IMG/VR virus record: IMGVR_UViG_3300001041_000017
Coordinates: 1-64,000 of that record
DNA length: 64,000 nt
Source of the DNA: a virus
Direction: 5' to 3' (one strand)
Below the pieces are notes generated by a model. The model saw only the letters and a program-made list of their open reading frames with translations, was not told the DNA's origin and did no database searches. Shown in pieces: positions 7,937 through 60,543 of this stretch (positions within the stretch are counted from its first letter, which is position 1; the number at the start of each line of letters is the position of its first letter). The position numbers and the translations under genes are program-made.

Positions 7937-9930
7937 AAAACAGAATTTATAAGTTAAAAAATGAAATAATTAAAGTATTTCAGAAATGGCAAACAAATAT
8001 TATGACTTCATTTTGGGGATCAGATTTTGATGGTCTTATAATAAAATCATCTTCCGGCATACCTCAAGAATTAGAGGATAAATTAATAGCTATGGTTCCG
8101 GTAGAAGAATTAAATGAAGTTATAAGGGAATCTTTTAATCAAGGAATAAAAATAGAAACAATAAATCATTCAGTCAAATTTGATGATGGATTAATAGACT
8201 GGACTTTATACGATAAAAGAACTTCTAAATTTCTAGACAACTACACATTTAAGGCCAGTCAAAAAACTCTAGATCGGATAAATGGAGGAAATATTCTGGG
8301 ATTGATTAAAGATCAGAATGAAAAGGGTGGAGATATCAACGATATGATCCATTCCATCCATAAGTCTTTTCAGGAGTTTTCCGATTACGAGGCAGAAAGA
8401 ATAGCAAGAACTGAAACATTAAGAGCAAGAAACTTTGCTAGATTTATGTCTTTAAAAGAAGACTTTAATGTAGATAAAAAGACTTGGCAAACTCATATAG
8501 ACGGTAGACAAAGAAAATCACATGAAAAATTGCATCTGGAGACTGTTCCAATAGATGAACCGTTTCCTAATGGATTGATGTTTCCGGGAGATCCTTCGGG
8601 TATTCCAAGTGAAGTAATAAATTGTAGATGTAGTCTACTTTCTGGTCAAAGTCCTGATAAAATAAAAAGAAAAACAGATGATGAGGATTATGAGATAGAA
8701 GATCCTATGGAATCTATAAAGGAAGACCTTCCACAACACTATATAGATTATTCCCTAAAATATATGGAGAGGTTAGCTAGGAAGTTAGAAAAAGAAATGA
8801 TTGATAATGAAGAAATAAATAATTTATTAAATCAAAATATGAGTATTATGGCAAAACAAGCAGAAGAAACAATGAGAGAAATGGAAGTTGATCTATCAGG
8901 AAATGTTTTTGTTTTAGATACTAGAAATAGCTATGAAAACATTGTTTTTGGAAACATTAAAAATGTTAATCGGGAATTATCTTTGGTTTCAGAAATAACT
9001 CCAGAAATTATTTTAGCGGAGTCTAAAAACATAACCATTCCTGAATACTTCAAGATACCTGAAGAGGGTTATAAATATTATCCTTTGGTAAGTCAAAAAG
9101 AAATTCTTAGAGAAGTTTCAAGACTTCCTCAAGGGCCTAAAAGGTATAGAATAAAACAAACAGGGTTCAAGATACCTAATAAAACTATTATTGTTGATGA
9201 TGTTATTTATACAGCTTACGATTCCGAGATAGAAGATATCATCTATTCAGCAACAGAAATATTTGTTAAACAAGAACAAGAACATCTACCTGGTCTTACC
9301 GTTCAAGACGTTATAGATACGTTTTTTGACGGAGATAATAGGTTTGAATTTGATATAGTAACACCAGAAGAAAAAAGACAATTCTTAAAGCAATATTGTT
9401 ATAAGAATAAAATGTTAGCCGGATCTGTTAATTTTGAGATAGACCTGAAAGACATAGAAAATACTTTTGGTGGAGTAGAAGAAATATTGAATCTACCTAA
9501 TGATGATTTTAGAGAAATTTTCTTTAAGTCATTTAGCCCAAAATTTGATTTAGATGTTTCTGTAGAAGATAGTTTTTCAAATAAAACAATTAAGAAAATA
9601 TCTAATATGATCGATTGGGTGGAAGGTTATATTTTTGGCTCCGTATTAACTGCCCCAATAATAATTCACTATGTTAAAGAGGAAAGTTATTACGATTTAA
9701 TCAACAATATTATTTACTTGAATGATGAGTCGGATGAAGAAGATATTCTAAGATATATTGGATTCTACATTCAGAATACTAATTCAGGAATATTTAAAGA
9801 GTTATCTCAGAGTGATTTTATGGCAAGAATATTACCAAAATTACTTTCTGGTAAATCTATAAAAGAGTTATACAAAAATGACAAAGAATCATTTGAAAAA
9901 ATATTTTCAATTGTAAGGGGGAGTTTTTAA
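7909..9930 (+). CDS. MuF/SPP1 gp7-type minor head protein with long C-terminal extension
   Basis: Residues about 130-255 carry the MuF-like head morphogenesis domain: AERIARTETLRARNFARF, then TWQTHIDGRQRKSHEKLH and the terminal VINCRCSL signature. Such proteins sit at the portal and can enter the host with the DNA. The usual protein ends soon after this domain; here about 400 further residues follow (673 aa in all). They are acidic and largely unrecognised. A segment near 600-622 (NIIYLNDESDEEDILRYIGF) resembles the spacing of a zincin helix without the HExxH residues. The start is TTG at 7909, inside the end of the portal gene. Confidence 0.8.
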   Translation: MEQKIQRQLENRIYKLKNEIIKVFQKWQTNIMTSFWGSDFDGLIIKSSSGIPQELEDKLIAMVPVEELNEVIRESFNQGIKIETINHSVKFDDGLIDWTLYDKRTSKFLDNYTFKASQKTLDRINGGNILGLIKDQNEKGGDINDMIHSIHKSFQEFSDYEAERIARTETLRARNFARFMSLKEDFNVDKKTWQTHIDGRQRKSHEKLHLETVPIDEPFPNGLMFPGDPSGIPSEVINCRCSLLSGQSPDKIKRKTDDEDYEIEDPMESIKEDLPQHYIDYSLKYMERLARKLEKEMIDNEEINNLLNQNMSIMAKQAEETMREMEVDLSGNVFVLDTRNSYENIVFGNIKNVNRELSLVSEITPEIILAESKNITIPEYFKIPEEGYKYYPLVSQKEILREVSRLPQGPKRYRIKQTGFKIPNKTIIVDDVIYTAYDSEIEDIIYSATEIFVKQEQEHLPGLTVQDVIDTFFDGDNRFEFDIVTPEEKRQFLKQYCYKNKMLAGSVNFEIDLKDIENTFGGVEEILNLPNDDFREIFFKSFSPKFDLDVSVEDSFSNKTIKKISNMIDWVEGYIFGSVLTAPIIIHYVKEESYYDLINNIIYLNDESDEEDILRYIGFYIQNTNSGIFKELSQSDFMARILPKLLSGKSIKELYKNDKESFEKIFSIVRGSF

Positions 9931-9931
9931 T

Positions 9932-10234
9932 TTGATTAGTATTAAAGACGGTGAAAAAAGAAAGGTAGGAATAGAATTAGAATCAAGTAATAAGAAAAAT
10001 AATTTTGTGATAAGTGATGCAGAATTTAAGGTTGAAAGAATGGACGAAAAAACACCTGTTTCTATTGATGAAAGGCAGATTTTCATAATTCAACCTACTA
10101 AAACCTCTCCAGCAGAGGTTTATATTATTTTAGACTGGAATGAACTTTTACCAGATATTTATTCTTTCCTTTTTTCAGTAAGTATTTTTGATGAAATATA
10201 TACTGGTAAAGTTACGGTTGAAATAGAGATATGA
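9932..10234 (+). CDS. Small beta-rich protein, possibly Ig-like (100 aa)
   Basis: The TTG start at 9932 follows AAGGGGGAGTTTTTAAT. The sequence alternates short strands (RKVGIELES, FVISDAEFKVER, EVYIILDWNELLP), as expected for a compact beta sandwich. It stands first in a run of beta-rich genes between the minor head protein and the protease. Function unknown, possibly a head accessory protein. Confidence 0.6.
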   Translation: MISIKDGEKRKVGIELESSNKKNNFVISDAEFKVERMDEKTPVSIDERQIFIIQPTKTSPAEVYIILDWNELLPDIYSFLFSVSIFDEIYTGKVTVEIEI

Positions 10235-10289
10235 TTTTAAGATTTTTATTAACAGAAAAAATTAAAAACTTTGAAAAGGAGAATGAATC

Positions 10290-10706
10290 TTGAATTACAT
10301 TCTACTTTTAAACAATAATCCAACAGTAGGGGTAGAAGATGGGGATAATGTTTCTAGCGGAGATAGGCTTAATCCGGTACTATCAGATCCTTTAGATACT
10401 TCTTTTAACGAAGAGAGTTTACCAATAAAATTAGCTATAAGATGTATTTTTGGTTACGAAACTTCTAATAATGTCAAAATAACTCCTTTTGGAGAAAATG
10501 AAGATAGATGGAGTTTGGCATTAGATGATAACGAACAGCCAGGAATATTTCTAAGTTATGGTGACTCTTTAGAAATAAATGAAGTTATCAAGGATAAAAA
10601 TTATGTATTCTGGGTTAAAGACAGAACGATCTCTGGAGAATTACCTGTTAACGACAAAACAGTTTCTTTAAAAGTCGAAACAAAGATCTCCTCTAATCTC
10701 TTATAA
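10290..10706 (+). CDS. Protein of unknown function in head cluster (138 aa)
   Basis: The TTG start at 10290 follows AAAAGGAGAATGAATC. The product is acidic and beta-rich, with no membrane segment. Its N-terminus (YILLLNNNPTVGVEDGDNVSS) resembles adjacent beta-sandwich proteins in style but not clearly in sequence. It probably encodes a head accessory or surface protein, based only on location. Confidence 0.6.
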   Translation: MNYILLLNNNPTVGVEDGDNVSSGDRLNPVLSDPLDTSFNEESLPIKLAIRCIFGYETSNNVKITPFGENEDRWSLALDDNEQPGIFLSYGDSLEINEVIKDKNYVFWVKDRTISGELPVNDKTVSLKVETKISSNLL

Positions 10707-11826: not shown

Positions 11827-12628
11827 TTGGATTGAATTAATTATTGATATTTCTAATCCAAATATTGAAGTAGACTATCCATCGGTAATTTATCAAGGAG
11901 ATGTTGTATCTCTTAGAATTGTGTCAGATAAAATTTTGGATACTGAATTTCAAAACATTTATTTGATAGACCTATTAGGAGAGAAAAATATTCTCCTTTT
12001 TAATTTCATGGATGAAAATAATTTAACCTTAGAACTAGATACAACAAATATACCTACGGGAATAATTCAATTATTTATTTCCCTAAGAGACGATCTTCAT
12101 AATCCTAGAATTATTGAGAAAGATATAAGAATCTATCCTGAAAATTATTTCAATAAAAGTAGTTGGATTGAGTTAGTTTTGGATGTTTCAAATCCAAACT
12201 TAAGTATAGGGTTTCCTATAGAAATTTATCAAGAAGACATTATTTCACTAACAATAAATTCAGATAAAATTTTGGATACGGAATTTCAAAACATTTATCT
12301 GGTTGATAGGTTAGGCGAAAAACATGATCTTCTTTTTTCTTTTGTAGATGAGAAAAGGTTAACTTTAGAATTAGACACAAGAAATATTTCTCCTGGAACA
12401 GCTATTCTTCATGTCGAATTAAGAGATGATTTATATAACACCAGGATAGTAGAAACATCTATGAAAATAAATTTCAGACCTAAAGATATTATTTATTTCT
12501 TTGATACATTAAGAAAGATTTATCAGCCAATAGAAACACGGTTTGATTTAGAAAGATCCTTTAAGCAATTAAATTTTGTTATTTCAGAAATCAAACCAAC
12601 GGTGAAAATTAAGGAGATGATTTTTTGA
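11819..12628 (+). CDS. Protein with two tandem Ig-like repeats (269 aa)
   Basis: Two repeats of about 112 residues each start with SWIELIIDISNPN and SWIELVLDVSNPN, and share SDKILDTEFQNIYL exactly. At the DNA level the shared segments (about 11924-11962 and 12260-12298) are nearly identical, so the duplication is recent. A C-terminal tail of about 45 residues follows. The start chosen is ATG 11819, overlapping the preceding stop; earlier in-frame ATGs lie inside the upstream gene. Likely a head-associated surface protein (inference). Confidence 0.65.
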   Translation: MNSWIELIIDISNPNIEVDYPSVIYQGDVVSLRIVSDKILDTEFQNIYLIDLLGEKNILLFNFMDENNLTLELDTTNIPTGIIQLFISLRDDLHNPRIIEKDIRIYPENYFNKSSWIELVLDVSNPNLSIGFPIEIYQEDIISLTINSDKILDTEFQNIYLVDRLGEKHDLLFSFVDEKRLTLELDTRNISPGTAILHVELRDDLYNTRIVETSMKINFRPKDIIYFFDTLRKIYQPIETRFDLERSFKQLNFVISEIKPTVKIKEMIF

Positions 12629-13602
12629 AATATGTAATAAGAAAAGAAGAAAATATTTTATCTAATTTGGATCAAGCAAATACTGTGATATCTCAATTAT
12701 CAGAAGATGATATTAACCTTCTAGGTCCAAGATGGTTTTATGACGAAGCTCAGTTGAGAATTATTTATGTAGAAGATGATATTCCTGTAGGATTTATAGA
12801 AACAAGAATCATAGGGAAAAGATGTTATCTAAATATTGCTGTTTTGTCCGATCATAGAAACAAAGGAATTTCGGATGCTTTAATTTCTGGAATGAAAGAA
12901 TTGATAATTCAAGATTATCCAGATGTTAATAAAATTTTCTACATAACAAAATCAGATAATCAGGCATCTATAAATTTAGCAACAAGAACGGGTTTTATAG
13001 ATTCAGGAAGTAAGGACGGATACACCAGATACTCTTTTGTTTTAAAAGAAGATTACTCTATAGAGAAAGTAGATGATGATTTTATGGTTTATAGTGAAGT
13101 CAAAAAAAGTGTAACTCAAACCGACTTTTCATTACAAATGAATATTTTTAAAGTTGATGAAATGAAAGGAATTGTTTATGGAAAAGCTTTAATTCCAAAC
13201 TATGTAGATTCTCAATCTGATATTTGTACTCCAGAAGAGGTCGAAAAAATAGCTCATGGTTTTATGATCGGATTACAAATGCCGGTAGTTCAAAAAAGCC
13301 AGCTTGGAGATATGCACGAAAACTTTGGGGAAAACCCTTGGGAAATAGGATTAGTATTAGAGTCTTATATTTCTCCCGATGATGGAAGTTGGGTTCTTGT
13401 AACAAAACCTAACGAAGTTATTTTAGAGAAAATTAAAAAACTAGAAATAACAGGATACTCAATTGGTGGAGTTGGTTTCAGAACTCCATTAGAAATTGAC
13501 GATGAAAATTTAGTTGAAAAAGTAGAAAAAAACAAAGCATTAAGTTCAGAAATTACTCAAGAAATATCTGATATATACAAACAACTAACAAATAACAAAT
13601 AA
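12625..13602 (+). CDS. GNAT acetyltransferase fused to XkdF-type prohead protease
   Basis: Residues about 1-140 form a GNAT domain: CYLNIAVLSDHRNKGISDAL (67-86) is the acetyl-CoA binding motif A, and SDNQASINLATRTGF (110-124) is motif B. Residues about 165-290 match the XkdF family of putative phage serine proteases: GIVYGKALIPNYVDSQSD, a catalytic-type GDMHENF (H231) and TGYSIGG (S279). The protease is expected to mature the prohead by cutting scaffold. Its position before scaffold and capsid genes fits. The GNAT fusion is unusual. The TTG start at 12625 overlaps the preceding stop behind AAGGAGATGA. Confidence 0.8.
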   Translation: MKYVIRKEENILSNLDQANTVISQLSEDDINLLGPRWFYDEAQLRIIYVEDDIPVGFIETRIIGKRCYLNIAVLSDHRNKGISDALISGMKELIIQDYPDVNKIFYITKSDNQASINLATRTGFIDSGSKDGYTRYSFVLKEDYSIEKVDDDFMVYSEVKKSVTQTDFSLQMNIFKVDEMKGIVYGKALIPNYVDSQSDICTPEEVEKIAHGFMIGLQMPVVQKSQLGDMHENFGENPWEIGLVLESYISPDDGSWVLVTKPNEVILEKIKKLEITGYSIGGVGFRTPLEIDDENLVEKVEKNKALSSEITQEISDIYKQLTNNK

Positions 13603-13644: not shown

Positions 13645-14769
13645 TTGGCGAAAACTAAAGTAAATCTCCTTCACGACACTCAAGTTAATGAAGTTTCTTA
13701 TGTCGATAAAGGAGCAATTGGGCAAAAGTTTTACTTTATGAAAAGAGATACTTCTGCCGAACCGGAAACTCAAATTCCTGAAAAGCAAACTACTATCCAA
13801 AAAATTATTTCTTCGATTACTAAATCCTTCAAAGGTAAAGTTGAGAAGAGTGACGGTTTTACCGATTTCACGGCTGCCATAAGTTACGAAGTTAACAATG
13901 ATAAACTTTGGGATGCTTATTGGGCTATAAGAGATGTTATTTTTAACATCATTGGTGATGAAAATATAACAGATAAAAGTTTTGCTATCGGTAATGCGTG
14001 TGATCAGTTTAAGAATTATGTTATTTCTCTGGTTAGTCAATTCACTGTAGCCAAACGCCAGGAAATTGTTAAAAAGTATCAGGAAGAAAACACTACTGTA
14101 GATGATGCTTTCGGAGTTTTCATTGAGGATCTAGTTAACATCTCAAAAAGTTCACAAACTCCGGAAACTGATATTGGTTCTGCCGTTTTAAACTTCAAAA
14201 ATCAAATGACTTCGGTATTGAGTGATAATGTTCAAAAGGCAGGTAAGAAAGTTTCTTCTGCCAGATTGGACACCTTAAAGGTTTTATCTAGTCAATTGAA
14301 TGACTTTATTGCGGATGCGGAATCTGTTCCGGCTGATACAGGAGATGGTTCCGGTGAGGGTGTTTCAAAAAACGATAATGGTAAGGGGGAAGATAACGAG
14401 ATGAAACCTGAAGATTTAACTGCGGTTCTTAAAGGTGTTTTGGAACCTCTTTCTCAAAAGATGGATGAGGTAACAAAACGTCTTGAAGATGTTGAAAAGA
14501 AAAAGACAGAAGAATCCCCTTCTGCTGGAGCAACTACTGAAACTGTAGTCAAAACAGCAGAACCGGTCCAAAAAACTGAGGCAGAACTTATTACTGAAGC
14601 TATTCAGAAAGCTATGGAACCGTTAACTACAAAAATCGAAGAAGTTACCAAACGCCTTGAAACCGTTGAAAAAATGGAAGCAAATCCTCCGGCAGCTGCT
14701 ACTGGCTCCGAGGGAACTCCTGATCCGGTAACTAAAAGCGGTAAGAAGTGGCCTAGTTTTTCCGCTTAA
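13645..14769 (+). CDS. Scaffold-like protein with duplicated coiled coil (374 aa)
   Basis: The N-terminus, VNEVSYVDKGAIGQKF (residues about 14-29), resembles the EVSLVD-x-GA segment found with XkdF proteins. The middle is helical. The C-terminal third has two repeats of about 30 residues, VLEPLSQKMDEVTKRLEDVE and AMEPLTTKIEEVTKRLETVE, separated by low-complexity Ala/Thr/Glu linkers. Lying between protease and major capsid protein, it is probably the scaffold. Start TTG 13645 behind GAGGAGGTG. Confidence 0.7.
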   Translation: MAKTKVNLLHDTQVNEVSYVDKGAIGQKFYFMKRDTSAEPETQIPEKQTTIQKIISSITKSFKGKVEKSDGFTDFTAAISYEVNNDKLWDAYWAIRDVIFNIIGDENITDKSFAIGNACDQFKNYVISLVSQFTVAKRQEIVKKYQEENTTVDDAFGVFIEDLVNISKSSQTPETDIGSAVLNFKNQMTSVLSDNVQKAGKKVSSARLDTLKVLSSQLNDFIADAESVPADTGDGSGEGVSKNDNGKGEDNEMKPEDLTAVLKGVLEPLSQKMDEVTKRLEDVEKKKTEESPSAGATTETVVKTAEPVQKTEAELITEAIQKAMEPLTTKIEEVTKRLETVEKMEANPPAAATGSEGTPDPVTKSGKKWPSFSA

Positions 14770-54339: not shown

Positions 54340-54368
54340 TTGACAAGGTATTTTGTATGATTTATAAT
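54340..54368 (+). promoter_or_regulatory. Consensus sigma-A promoter
   Basis: TTGACA (54340-54345), exactly 17 nt, then TATAAT (54363-54368): a perfect vegetative promoter. It would drive the small gene at 54399 and, if read through, the primase region. Confidence 0.85.
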
Positions 54369-54398: not shown

Positions 54399-54644
54399 AT
54401 GGAAAAATCCTGCGAGGAAAAGTTGTTTCTACTTCAGGAAAAACACAATAAAGTATTAAGAAGTCTTCAGGATCTTACGGAGTGTCTGAAACTGGCTGTT
54501 AAAGAAAGGGATTATCTAATAAATCAAAGGGAAGAAATTAATAGAATGTTAGATCTTTTAGGCGTTCCGAGAGAATTGAACGGAGATCCTCTTACTATTC
54601 CTAATCGTTTAAAAGAAGTATCTCCTCTTTATAAAGAAAAGTAA
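54399..54644 (+). CDS. Small coiled-coil protein (81 aa)
   Basis: Residues about 1-50 form a coiled coil (LFLLQEKHNKVLRSLQDLTE). The start ATG 54399 follows GGCGGTGAAAATTT and comes shortly after a consensus sigma-A promoter, so it may be expressed early or from the prophage. A strong terminator follows at 54713. Function unknown. Confidence 0.65.
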   Translation: MEKSCEEKLFLLQEKHNKVLRSLQDLTECLKLAVKERDYLINQREEINRMLDLLGVPRELNGDPLTIPNRLKEVSPLYKEK

Positions 54645-57839: not shown

Positions 57840-57887
57840 TGTCCTAAATTGTAAGGGCGGGCAAAAGTACCTTTACAATTTAGGACA
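57840..57887. repeat. Long inverted repeat after the recombinase, candidate att site or terminator
   Basis: TGTCCTAAATTGTAAGG (57840-57856) pairs with CCTTTACAATTTAGGACA (57870-57887) with a single bulged A. The 13-nt centre is GC-rich for this genome (GCGGGC...). It lies 7 nt after the recombinase stop, where attP often lies for large serine recombinases. It could equally be part of a bidirectional terminator. Confidence 0.5.
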
Positions 57888-57892
57888 ACAAA

Positions 57893-57927
57893 AACCCTAA
57901 CAATGATTAATGTTAGGGTTTAATTTT
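57893..57927. terminator. Bidirectional terminator between recombinase and repressor
   Basis: AACCCTAACA (57893-57902) and TGTTAGGGTT (57911-57920) are perfectly paired around an 8-nt loop, with T-rich sequence on the + side. The stem includes the last codons and stop of the repressor on the - strand. Confidence 0.72.
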
Positions 57928-58316
57928 TCCTGTAATTCTATTATGCTGTTGATGATTTTTTCGAGAGTGGAGACAGGGATTTTTTTATCATATGCTTTTT
58001 CGATTAAGAGAATATACGGAAGGAAATCCGTATGAGAAAGTATGTCTGGACTTAATTTATTATTGAGAATTCCTGATTCGTAAACATCATTTAAAGTAAA
58101 GTCGAACAAAAAATAAAACGGAGACACATTAAGTATTTCACTAAGAGTTGATATTAATTCTTTAGAAATATTTTTACCTCTTTTATCTTTAGAAAGAACA
58201 CTAATATAAGCTGCGGTCACATTTACCTTTTCTGCTAACTCCTTTTGTTTCAAACTCCTATTCTCCATAATTAATTTTAACTTTTCCCCAAATGTCAGAA
58301 CATCAAATCTCTTCAT
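57897..58316 (-). CDS. XRE-family repressor (139 aa)
   Basis: The only well-supported - strand gene. An N-terminal helix-turn-helix (about residues 21-45; LKQKELAEKVNVTAAYISVL) matches Cro/CI-type repressors. The C-terminal half is helical and lacks a LexA/CI-type peptidase, so induction would not use self-cleavage unless another factor helps. The start ATG is at 58316 (minus), with a strong GGAGGTGATA site. It is divergent from the sigma-like gene and convergent with the recombinase, so it probably controls lysogeny. Confidence 0.85.
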   Translation of the reverse strand: MKRFDVLTFGEKLKLIMENRSLKQKELAEKVNVTAAYISVLSKDKRGKNISKELISTLSEILNVSPFYFLFDFTLNDVYESGILNNKLSPDILSHTDFLPYILLIEKAYDKKIPVSTLEKIINSIIELQEKLNPNINHC

Positions 58317-58519: not shown

Positions 58520-58548
58520 TTGACATTAAGGTTATTATGAAATATAAT
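58520..58548 (+). promoter_or_regulatory. Consensus sigma-A promoter (early rightward)
   Basis: TTGACA (58520-58525), 17 nt and TATAAT (58543-58548) form a perfect vegetative promoter reading into the sigma-like gene. It is divergent from the repressor and so is the likely early lytic promoter. A TTGTC/GACAA dyad lies just upstream at 58488-58504. Confidence 0.85.
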
Positions 58549-58657
58549 TCATGGAAATAACATAAAGTTAATTGATCGGCATATCATAATATAAACCCTA
58601 CATAAATAATAACGGTTAGTTAACAAAACCTTTATATTTAGAGAGGAGAGATATTTT

Positions 58658-59551
58658 GTGAAGAAGGGTCAATGCCAACAATGCCAAATATGTAGTTATT
58701 CCTGTGAGGACAAGGATTTACTTCTGAAACATCTAGAAGAATACCACGGATTAAGAGTAGGTTTTGTTTTAGAGAATGAGACAGGTGTTTTAGAGAACGA
58801 AATGTATCTAATAAGAGAAGGTCTCAGTAGTTCTATAGAGAAAGTTATAAGAAAGATGAGACCTTACTTAATTAAGGCTGTAAACCAGAAGTATTCTAAT
58901 TATCCCTCGAATCTTATGAATAAAGATGATTTTATCTCTATTGCAGAGATTTCTATTTGGGAGAGCTTGAATTGTCAGATAGAAAATCCAGAAATAAAGG
59001 ATAAATGTTATAAATATATTTGTCCGGTATGTGGTAAAGCGTTTACTAGCATGATTAGATACGAAAAACATTTGCTGGTTAAGCATGGTAAACAAATCTC
59101 CCCTAAAGTATCTATTGGAGAATTTGTTAACTTCAGATTAGGGGTACGACTCCAAAATGCCGTTAGAGATGAATACGCTCAAAAACGGCAAGGGAATCAT
59201 TTTTATAGTCGGGACGATGAAATGTCCCAATCATTATATTTAGACTATGCTTCTGAGAGAGACGAAGATTCTGATTTTAAGGAACTTGACTCTGGTATAA
59301 ACATAGAGGACGAAGTTTCTGAAAAGTTTTTGATTGAGGGAATAATCAAGAGACTTGGATCTTCTAATATAGATAAGGCAATTATAATTCAGCTATTTCG
59401 TGGTATAAAAGTAAGAAAAATTGCCACTAAAATATATAACGCTTATGGAGAGCATTCGTCTATTAAATCAGCTACTACAACCGTCAAAAATATGATAAAA
59501 GTTCTACTGGAGAACGGAAATGTATTTGAAGACGGTTTAAAAATATCATAA
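58658..59551 (+). CDS. Sigma-factor-like protein with two C2H2 zinc fingers (297 aa)
   Basis: Reading order: C2H2 finger 1 at C9-x2-C12-x12-H25-x4-H30; a segment like sigma region 2.1-2.2 at about 59-105 (IEKVIRKMRPYLIKAVNQKY and KDDFISIAEISIWESLN); C2H2 finger 2 at C122-x2-C125-x12-H138-x4-H143; a segment like region 2.3-2.4 at about 151-173 (VSIGEFVNFRLGVRLQNAV); then a region 4-like helix-turn-helix at about 230-290 (KAIIIQLFRGIKVRKIATKI). Domain likeness is by eye. It is the first gene after a perfect early promoter and so may redirect RNA polymerase. GTG start 58658 behind GAGAGGAGAGATATTTT. Confidence 0.65.
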   Translation: MKKGQCQQCQICSYSCEDKDLLLKHLEEYHGLRVGFVLENETGVLENEMYLIREGLSSSIEKVIRKMRPYLIKAVNQKYSNYPSNLMNKDDFISIAEISIWESLNCQIENPEIKDKCYKYICPVCGKAFTSMIRYEKHLLVKHGKQISPKVSIGEFVNFRLGVRLQNAVRDEYAQKRQGNHFYSRDDEMSQSLYLDYASERDEDSDFKELDSGINIEDEVSEKFLIEGIIKRLGSSNIDKAIIIQLFRGIKVRKIATKIYNAYGEHSSIKSATTTVKNMIKVLLENGNVFEDGLKIS

Positions 59552-59558
59552 ATAATTT

Positions 59559-59600
59559 AAGAAGAAACCTTTTACAATAAGAGGTTTCTTCTTAATTTTT
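59559..59600 (+). terminator. Rho-independent terminator
   Basis: AAGAAGAAACCT (59559-59570) pairs perfectly with AGGTTTCTTCTT (59582-59593), followed by AATTTTT. It ends the sigma-like gene transcript. Confidence 0.88.
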
Positions 59601-59670: not shown

Positions 59671-59712
59671 TAATTAAACACAAAATACAAAAGGTAAAGG
59701 GAGGAATTGTTT

Positions 59713-60543
59713 TTGGCTAAGAAAACAACTGAAAAAAAGGACGATAAGAAAACTTCCAAGACTAAATCCAAATTTAAACTGAAGGATTTACTAGCCGGGG
59801 CTGAAGCTCTTGAGCTTGATACAGATGATATCGAGGATGATGCAAAGGCTTTAGAAGCAGCCATTGATGATGCTGTTTCAGATTTAGACGAGGATGATAC
59901 CTGTGAGTGTGGTGAGTGCGGTAAAGACATTCCTGACGTAGACACTTGCCCCTACTGCGGTAAAGTCTTCGAAACAGACGACTCCGATGAAGACGAAGAA
60001 TCGGATGAAGATAACGACGAAGAAGAGGAAGAAGAACCTGCCACTATTAAGACTGTGGGCAAAGGCAAGAATAAAACCTTTAGCTGCTCTAAGTGCGGTA
60101 AGGCTGTAAAAGAGGATTCCAAGTCTTGCCCTAATAAGAAGTGTAAAGCTGTTTTTGAGACCGAAGAAGAGGATGAGGACGAGGAAGAAGAAACGTCCAA
60201 AAAGTCCTCTAAGAAGGATGATAAAAAAGCTGGCAAGGCTTCCGATAAAAAATCGGGCAAGGGTAAGAAAGATCCCGATCCGGAAGAAGAGGAAGATGAG
60301 GACGACGAAGAGGATGAAGAAGAAGTCGTCTATATAACTACTTCCGGTAAGGGTAAGAAGAAGAAATTTATCTGCTCAGGCTGCGGTGAAGAAGTAAAAG
60401 AAACCGCTAAAAAGTGCAAGGGTTGTAAGGCCGTATTTGGCGAAGAACCCGAAGAAGAGGAAGACGAGGAAGAAGAAACTCCTCCTCCGAAGAAGTCTTC
60501 CAAGAAGGACGATAAGAAGTCGTCCAAAAAGGGTAAGAAGTAA
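59713..60543 (+). CDS. Acidic protein with three zinc ribbons and lysine-rich linkers (276 aa)
   Basis: Three similar zinc ribbons, each two C-x2-C or close variants: CGECGKDI...CPYCGK, CSKCGKAV...CPNKKCKA and CSGCGEEV...CKGCKA. They are separated by long runs of Glu/Asp and by repeated Lys/Ser blocks (KKSSKKDDKK). The N-terminal 60 residues are basic and then acidic. Codon use is richer in G/C than neighbours and the binding site is strong (AAAGGGAGGAATTGTTT before TTG 59713). The mix suggests interaction with both nucleic acids and proteins, but the function is unknown. Confidence 0.65.
   Translation: MAKKTTEKKDDKKTSKTKSKFKLKDLLAGAEALELDTDDIEDDAKALEAAIDDAVSDLDEDDTCECGECGKDIPDVDTCPYCGKVFETDDSDEDEESDEDNDEEEEEEPATIKTVGKGKNKTFSCSKCGKAVKEDSKSCPNKKCKAVFETEEEDEDEEEETSKKSSKKDDKKAGKASDKKSGKGKKDPDPEEEEDEDDEEDEEEVVYITTSGKGKKKKFICSGCGEEVKETAKKCKGCKAVFGEEPEEEEDEEEETPPPKKSSKKDDKKSSKKGKK

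Follow-up and report, generated by a model that had tools for sequence, protein, structure and literature searches.

The sequences of sigma factors are highly diverse, and foreign folds are rare in the domain that reads the promoter. An original prediction had proposed such a case in a viral genome, namely a sigma-like protein with a C2H2 zinc finger inside region 2, and the question raised by this locus (Table 1) is whether the protein is a sigma factor and, if so, what a finger would be doing there. Phage sigma factors are well known in themselves, a survey of 4,350 phage genomes having found them in about 13% (PMC9429907), and the literature that we searched, i.e., open-licence papers, described no sigma factor with an internal C2H2 finger. 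Our preferred reading, toward which we lean with modest conviction, is that the gene product is a divergent sigma-70-family factor of the phage, resembling SigN, BacL2, and SigI, with a C2H2 finger in the position of loop L3.

Table 1. Features of the sigma-like locus (positions are those of the window; residues are those of the sigma-like protein).
Feature	Position	Strand	Basis or remarks
XRE/CI-like repressor, divergent from the sigma-like gene	57897-58316	-	phrog_8, E 1.4e-11
Perfect sigma-A promoter, TTGACA-N17-TATAAT	58520-58548	+	12/12 match
Ribosome-binding site AGGAG, 9 nt 5' of GTG	58644-58648	+	direct sequence reading
Sigma-like protein with two C2H2 fingers, 297 aa, GTG start	58658-59551	+	
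Finger 1, residues 9-30 (C9, C12, H25, H30)	58682-58747	+	residue list; zf-C2H2 hmmscan at max_evalue 10 reports two stretches
Sigma regions 2.1-2.2 (putative), residues 51-104, motif DDFISIAEISIW	58808-58969	+	BacL2 and SigI profiles; 0/3000 shuffles
Insert, residues 105-152, at the putative ECF loop L3 position	58970-59113	+	gap in all SigN-like rows of alignment A3
Finger 2, residues 122-143 (C122, C125, F129, Y135, H138, H143)	59021-59086	+	PF00096, best stretch 120-143
Sigma regions 2.3-2.4 (putative), residues 153-180 (GEFVNFRLGVRLQNAVRDEYAQKRQ)	59114-59197	+	aligned with SigN YCFTTYLYPKLRKGVRNATYSRYAQKNQ
Region-4-like helical/HTH domain (weak), residues 222-286	59321-59515	+	four low-confidence predicted helices
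Intrinsic terminator, 18-pair stem and T run	59557-59595	+	directly 3' of the ORF

Genomic Setting and Transcription Signals

The window, i.e., the whole 64,000-nucleotide stretch that was analyzed, comprises bases 1-64000 of an 80,057-base IMG/VR virus record. Its genes include those for a portal, a head morphogenesis protein, a prohead protease, a DnaB-like helicase, a primase, a large serine integrase, and a CI-like repressor, and the source virus is a temperate phage. A search for related phages via the primase, portal, and integrase yielded two near-identical portal fragments and none besides. The interval that separates the serine integrase gene from the repressor contains an inverted repeat (57840-57887; 18-nt arms, 94%, around a 12-nt center) that is a candidate attP site. 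Elsewhere in the window, the ORF at 12625-13602 appears to join a GNAT acetyltransferase domain (37-124) to an XkdF-type prohead protease (173-284), and the ORF directly 3' of the sigma-like gene (59707-60543) encodes a very acidic, lysine-rich protein with zinc-ribbon repeats. A NusG-like protein (PF02357, E 4.4e-10) encoded at L201:15674-16210 (record 77674-78210) is possibly a second transcription regulator of the phage. At L201:9089-9526, a DUF6884 protein (E 1.6e-41) adjoins an ORF (9530-10342) without a Pfam match that, judged by eye, is similar to a tRNA-guanine transglycosylase-like protein; the two possibly act in DNA base modification. Two further adjacent ORFs, L201:13404-13703 and 13749-14360, look like parts of a single PAPS-reductase-like gene.

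The sigma-like ORF sits alone between its sigma-A promoter and a strong terminator, and with the terminator closing it off, the gene is probably expressed as a one-gene transcript. The terminator had not featured in the original description. The original description of the gene as lying behind a perfect sigma-A promoter and facing away from the repressor was borne out. Across the 80-kb record, perfect intergenic sigma-A promoters on the plus strand were found at 58520 and at only one more site; the latter (54340-54368, again 12/12) lies 5' of an 81-aa ORF (54399-54644) without a Pfam match. Since a SigA promoter adjoins the repressor, the location fits an early switch, and the sigma-like protein is probably an early transcription switch, with control by the repressor being assumed from position. 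In a crude scan, most gene blocks lacked good sigma-A matches, bar a few promoter-like intergenic sites, and this scarcity might be expected if the phage supplied its own factor. A search for a cognate promoter, by counting dyads in 28 intergenic regions and by scanning with the SigN consensus, gave nothing above chance, and the phage showed no second promoter motif that recurs.

Such C2H2 Fingers Are Not Unusual Among Phages

Both fingers have the spacing C-x2-C-x12-H-x4-H (C9-H30 and C122-H143) that had been ascribed to them, and the protein matches Pfam zf-C2H2 (PF00096) at E=3.8e-7, with 30.6 bits against a gathering cut-off of 25.2. Finger 2 is canonical, having Phe129 and Tyr135 at the hydrophobic positions. 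In finger 1 the spacing is intact and there is an additional Cys6; since Cys16 stands for the usual Phe, this finger may be the weaker of the two. The fingers would presumably bind zinc. A match to Actin_micro (PF17003, 5.5e-5) was rejected as below cut-off, and it appears to be driven by the finger, since four of 68 ORFs picked only for a C2H2 finger also match PF17003.

The accompanying claim of rarity in phages was overstated. The pattern C-x2-CGK-x-F-x8-H-x4-H occurs in at least 119 stretches in IMG/VR, and 46 of the 68 ORFs with the C2H2 pattern (that of the window included) match PF00096. Among these 68, sigma families were absent from the 25 families matched most often in either library, and, with the best 25 families listed, a BacL2 match is known only for the window protein. 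Phage proteins with a single C2H2 finger (nucleases, ROS/MucR, TnsA-like proteins, and unknowns) thus have the same finger pattern, widespread in IMG/VR, but differ from the window protein in having no sigma family among the best 25 listed. What is unusual is the combination of such a finger with a sigma-like domain.

Region 2 Resembles That of Sigma Factors

The intact protein matched no sigma family in Pfam, and no match to the curated sigma models PF04542 and TIGR02937 was reported for any form of the query; a family search of the phage's own genome with PF04542 and BacL2 also gave no match at the sensitivity used. Among the 18,950 models of NCBIfam, the best match of the intact protein was BacL2 (E 0.035, residues 57-105). 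With the fingers taken out of the comparison (residue 45 onward, finger 2 removed), BacL2 came first at E=0.0025, in an alignment that covers most of the model and runs in the query from region 2 to the start of region 4, and SigI followed at 0.025. Residues 45-112 alone matched BacL2 at 0.0036 and four SigI models at 0.014-0.037. A profile search of residues 55-110 joined to 148-180, put forward with the original prediction, likewise returned BacL2 (E=0.0065) and SigI as the top NCBIfam models, but reached no cut-off. Similarity to sigma-type models therefore rises once finger 2 is removed. None of the curated sigma matches is significant singly, and all lie under the family cut-offs.

BacL2 (NF041508) was the best curated match for all forms of the query tested, region 4 alone excepted, but the protein is not a member, its best score of 17.7 bits being far under the 200 required. 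SigI (PRK08311 models) was second, over regions 2.1-2.3 (E 0.014-0.025; 13.8-15.2 bits against cut-offs of 244-319). The BacL2 family is tied to sigma by the sigma factor of Geobacillus phage GR1, which matches the BacL2 model at 5.7e-4. When the query was shuffled 3000 times, no shuffle scored as high over regions 2.1-2.2; for regions 2.3-2.4, none did with one profile and four with the other, a modest result. By these comparisons, regions 2.1-2.2 are detectable as distant sigma homology, at scores below the curated cut-offs.

SigN (ZpdN), from the prophage-like plasmid pBS32 of Bacillus subtilis, offers another comparison. SigN has been proven in vitro to be a sigma factor, ousting SigA from core polymerase and driving its own regulon (PMC6751061). 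Its regions 2.1-2.2 and 2.3-2.4 are colinear with those of the query up to a closing YAQK(R/N)Q, and its relatives in Geobacillus phage GR1 and Enterococcus phages VPE25, nattely, and 9183 share the query's phage or prophage setting. Identity to the query is about 22-26%, however, and SigN lacks a zinc finger and has a short 2.2-2.3 loop, whereas the query has an N-terminal finger, a Ser for the region-2.2 Gln, and a C terminus that matches poorly. Pairwise, SigN matched the intact query at E=2e-5. A six-protein SigN-like profile scored the finger-less query at 24.5 bits (best of 2000 shuffles, 10.1; best unrelated ORF of a 729-ORF set, 5.4), and hhalign gave P=3.5e-6 without the finger and 1.4e-5 with it (next control, 0.0084), although these SigN-profile figures carry a selection bias, since SigN was picked for having matched. 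A broader profile gave a weaker 15.2 bits, yet still ranked the query top (best shuffle, 9.1), and a profile lacking SigN and GR1 did not recognize the query. When the finger-less protein was compared with 72,556 plasmids, the only matched records carry a SigN gene (pBS32-type); at E=3 this match alone is noise, though the annotation agrees.

As a less biased check, the motif DDFxxxAxIx[hydrophobic]W was drawn from the query alone and scanned over IMG/VR. Matches in longer ORFs include L193, which matches NCBIfam sigma-70 at 4.6e-10, and L177/L180 and L194, which match TIGR02937 at 3.7e-5 and 5.1e-5. L193 is 33% identical to query residues 51-104 (E 1e-4), with some similarity persisting beyond the motif (P about 0.013). 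For the protein as a whole, neither phages and plasmids (by tblastn), nor IMG/VR and a genome collection (by pattern scans), nor a set of 50 viral records yielded anything beyond finger matches; the protein is an orphan.

Alignment Places Finger 2 Between Regions 2.2 and 2.3

In a multiple alignment of the query with ten other sequences (A3), finger 2 falls between regions 2.2 and 2.3: the SigN-like rows read WRAYE-YDSDTG-YCFTTYLYPKLRKGVRNATYSRYAQKNQ, and the query reads WESL-(insert with finger)-SIGEFVNFRLGVRLQNAVRDEYAQKRQ. The aligner positioned the insert region differently when given fewer rows, and finger rows, when added, pulled the sigma rows onto the finger and are left out of A3; since placement varied with the rows aligned, the boundaries of the insert are good to perhaps ten residues. 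An additional stretch at this site was also observed in the phage sigma-70-like protein L193:5600-6211 (minus strand), which has ~25 residues more between region 2.2 and the apparent 2.3, and no finger, so the site may tolerate inserts in other phages.

By alignment, the insertion site would correspond to loop L3 of ECF factors. This loop joins helix alpha3 to helix alpha4 in a helical hinge. As a modular determinant of -10 specificity, it captures the flipped-out -10 base, and swapping it can change promoter choice (PMC4598750; PMC8103513). It is possible, if doubtful, that the protein is a phage sigma factor in which L3 has been replaced by the C2H2 finger, such that a eukaryote-type DNA-reading module joins in promoter recognition or opening. 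The finger could instead act in a working sigma factor as a structural staple or as a metal- or redox-sensitive switch that makes no promoter contact. Such a role would agree with the zinc anti-sigma (ZAS) domains, where zinc is structural or redox-sensing (PMC4598750). A lone zinc finger usually confers weak DNA specificity, which would also agree. However, by alignment the insert occupies the spot where ECF factors read the -10 base, and we regard a finger without promoter contact as very improbable. The ZAS domains would share with the query the presence of zinc in sigma regulation (PMC4598750), but theirs is an HX3CX2C motif in a separate anti-sigma protein, and that of the query is a C2H2 finger inside the putative sigma region 2.

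Predicted Structure and the Second Half of the Protein

AlphaFold, when run without an alignment, gave a model with a pLDDT of 34 that matched random folds and no sigma factor. Taken with the facts that zf-C2H2 alone reaches a curated cut-off and that C2H2 proteins of phages often fall into other families, this model would suit a helical zinc-finger DNA-binding protein unrelated to sigma, whose likeness to region 2 arose by convergence or chance. We consider that quite improbable, since the NCBIfam models, the SigN profiles, and the query-only motif scan independently converge on sigma region 2 at the same residues, and since the similarity increases when the finger is removed.

With A3 as input, its sigma rows included, the prediction was still of low confidence (mean pLDDT 50.8, pTM 0.33). 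Residues 57-79, 89-109, and 153-177 are helical in this model, residues 120-143 fold as beta-beta-alpha, and four more helices occupy 222-285. Sigma factors formed the majority of its best 50 PDB matches, and Foldseek placed SigH first (probability 0.87), with the N-terminal domain of SigE at 0.75, all at E >=0.03. The A3-based model is compatible with a sigma fold, short of proof.

The original prediction had read regions 2.1-2.2, 2.3-2.4, and 4 in the protein; region 2 stands as distant homology, but region 4 is non-significant by sequence. Residues 225-297, for which a profile search had also been proposed, matched no NCBIfam family on their own, and between 16 and 740 of 3000 shuffles scored as high as the region-4 parts. 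Since region 4 has no profile match and is weak against shuffles, its assignment is a guess from topology. The sigma-like character of the first half of the protein is thus reasonably supported, and that of the second half weakly so.

In region 2.2, all ten other rows of A3 carry the conserved Gln that faces the clamp helices, and the query carries Ser94; the position is core-binding in sigma-70 (Q406). A Ser at this near-invariant site, an unrecognizable region 4, and two zinc fingers that would supply DNA binding of their own are all compatible with a sigma-derived protein that has lost its sigma role, its region 2 and finger now serving in DNA-binding regulation, in co-activation, or as a decoy lodged in the polymerase clamp. 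Such a loss seems to us rather unlikely, since similarity is retained in both regions 2.1-2.2 and 2.3-2.4 and the C-terminal part is predicted to be helical, with an HTH-like layout.

Possible Role in the Phage

As a divergent sigma-70-family factor, the protein would be ECF-like, with region 2 and probably region 4 and without region 1 or 3, and would stand nearest to SigN, the BacL2 family, and SigI. Once repression is lifted, the host's sigma-A polymerase would start transcription at the perfect promoter. The protein so made would then bind core polymerase via regions 2.1-2.2, the helix after the finger would read the -10 element, and the finger would add a contact to DNA or polymerase. The resulting holoenzyme would be redirected to phage promoters; by analogy with SigN, core binding and such redirection are the most likely functions.

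What would be new here, provided that the protein has sigma activity, is a C2H2 finger within a sigma factor. Since L3 of ECF factors can be swapped, a natural finger in this place would mean that an entire DNA-binding module can be accommodated in the loop. If this is true, a finger in L3 would suggest a route to sigma factors of designed specificity, and temperate phages would gain a further transcription switch.
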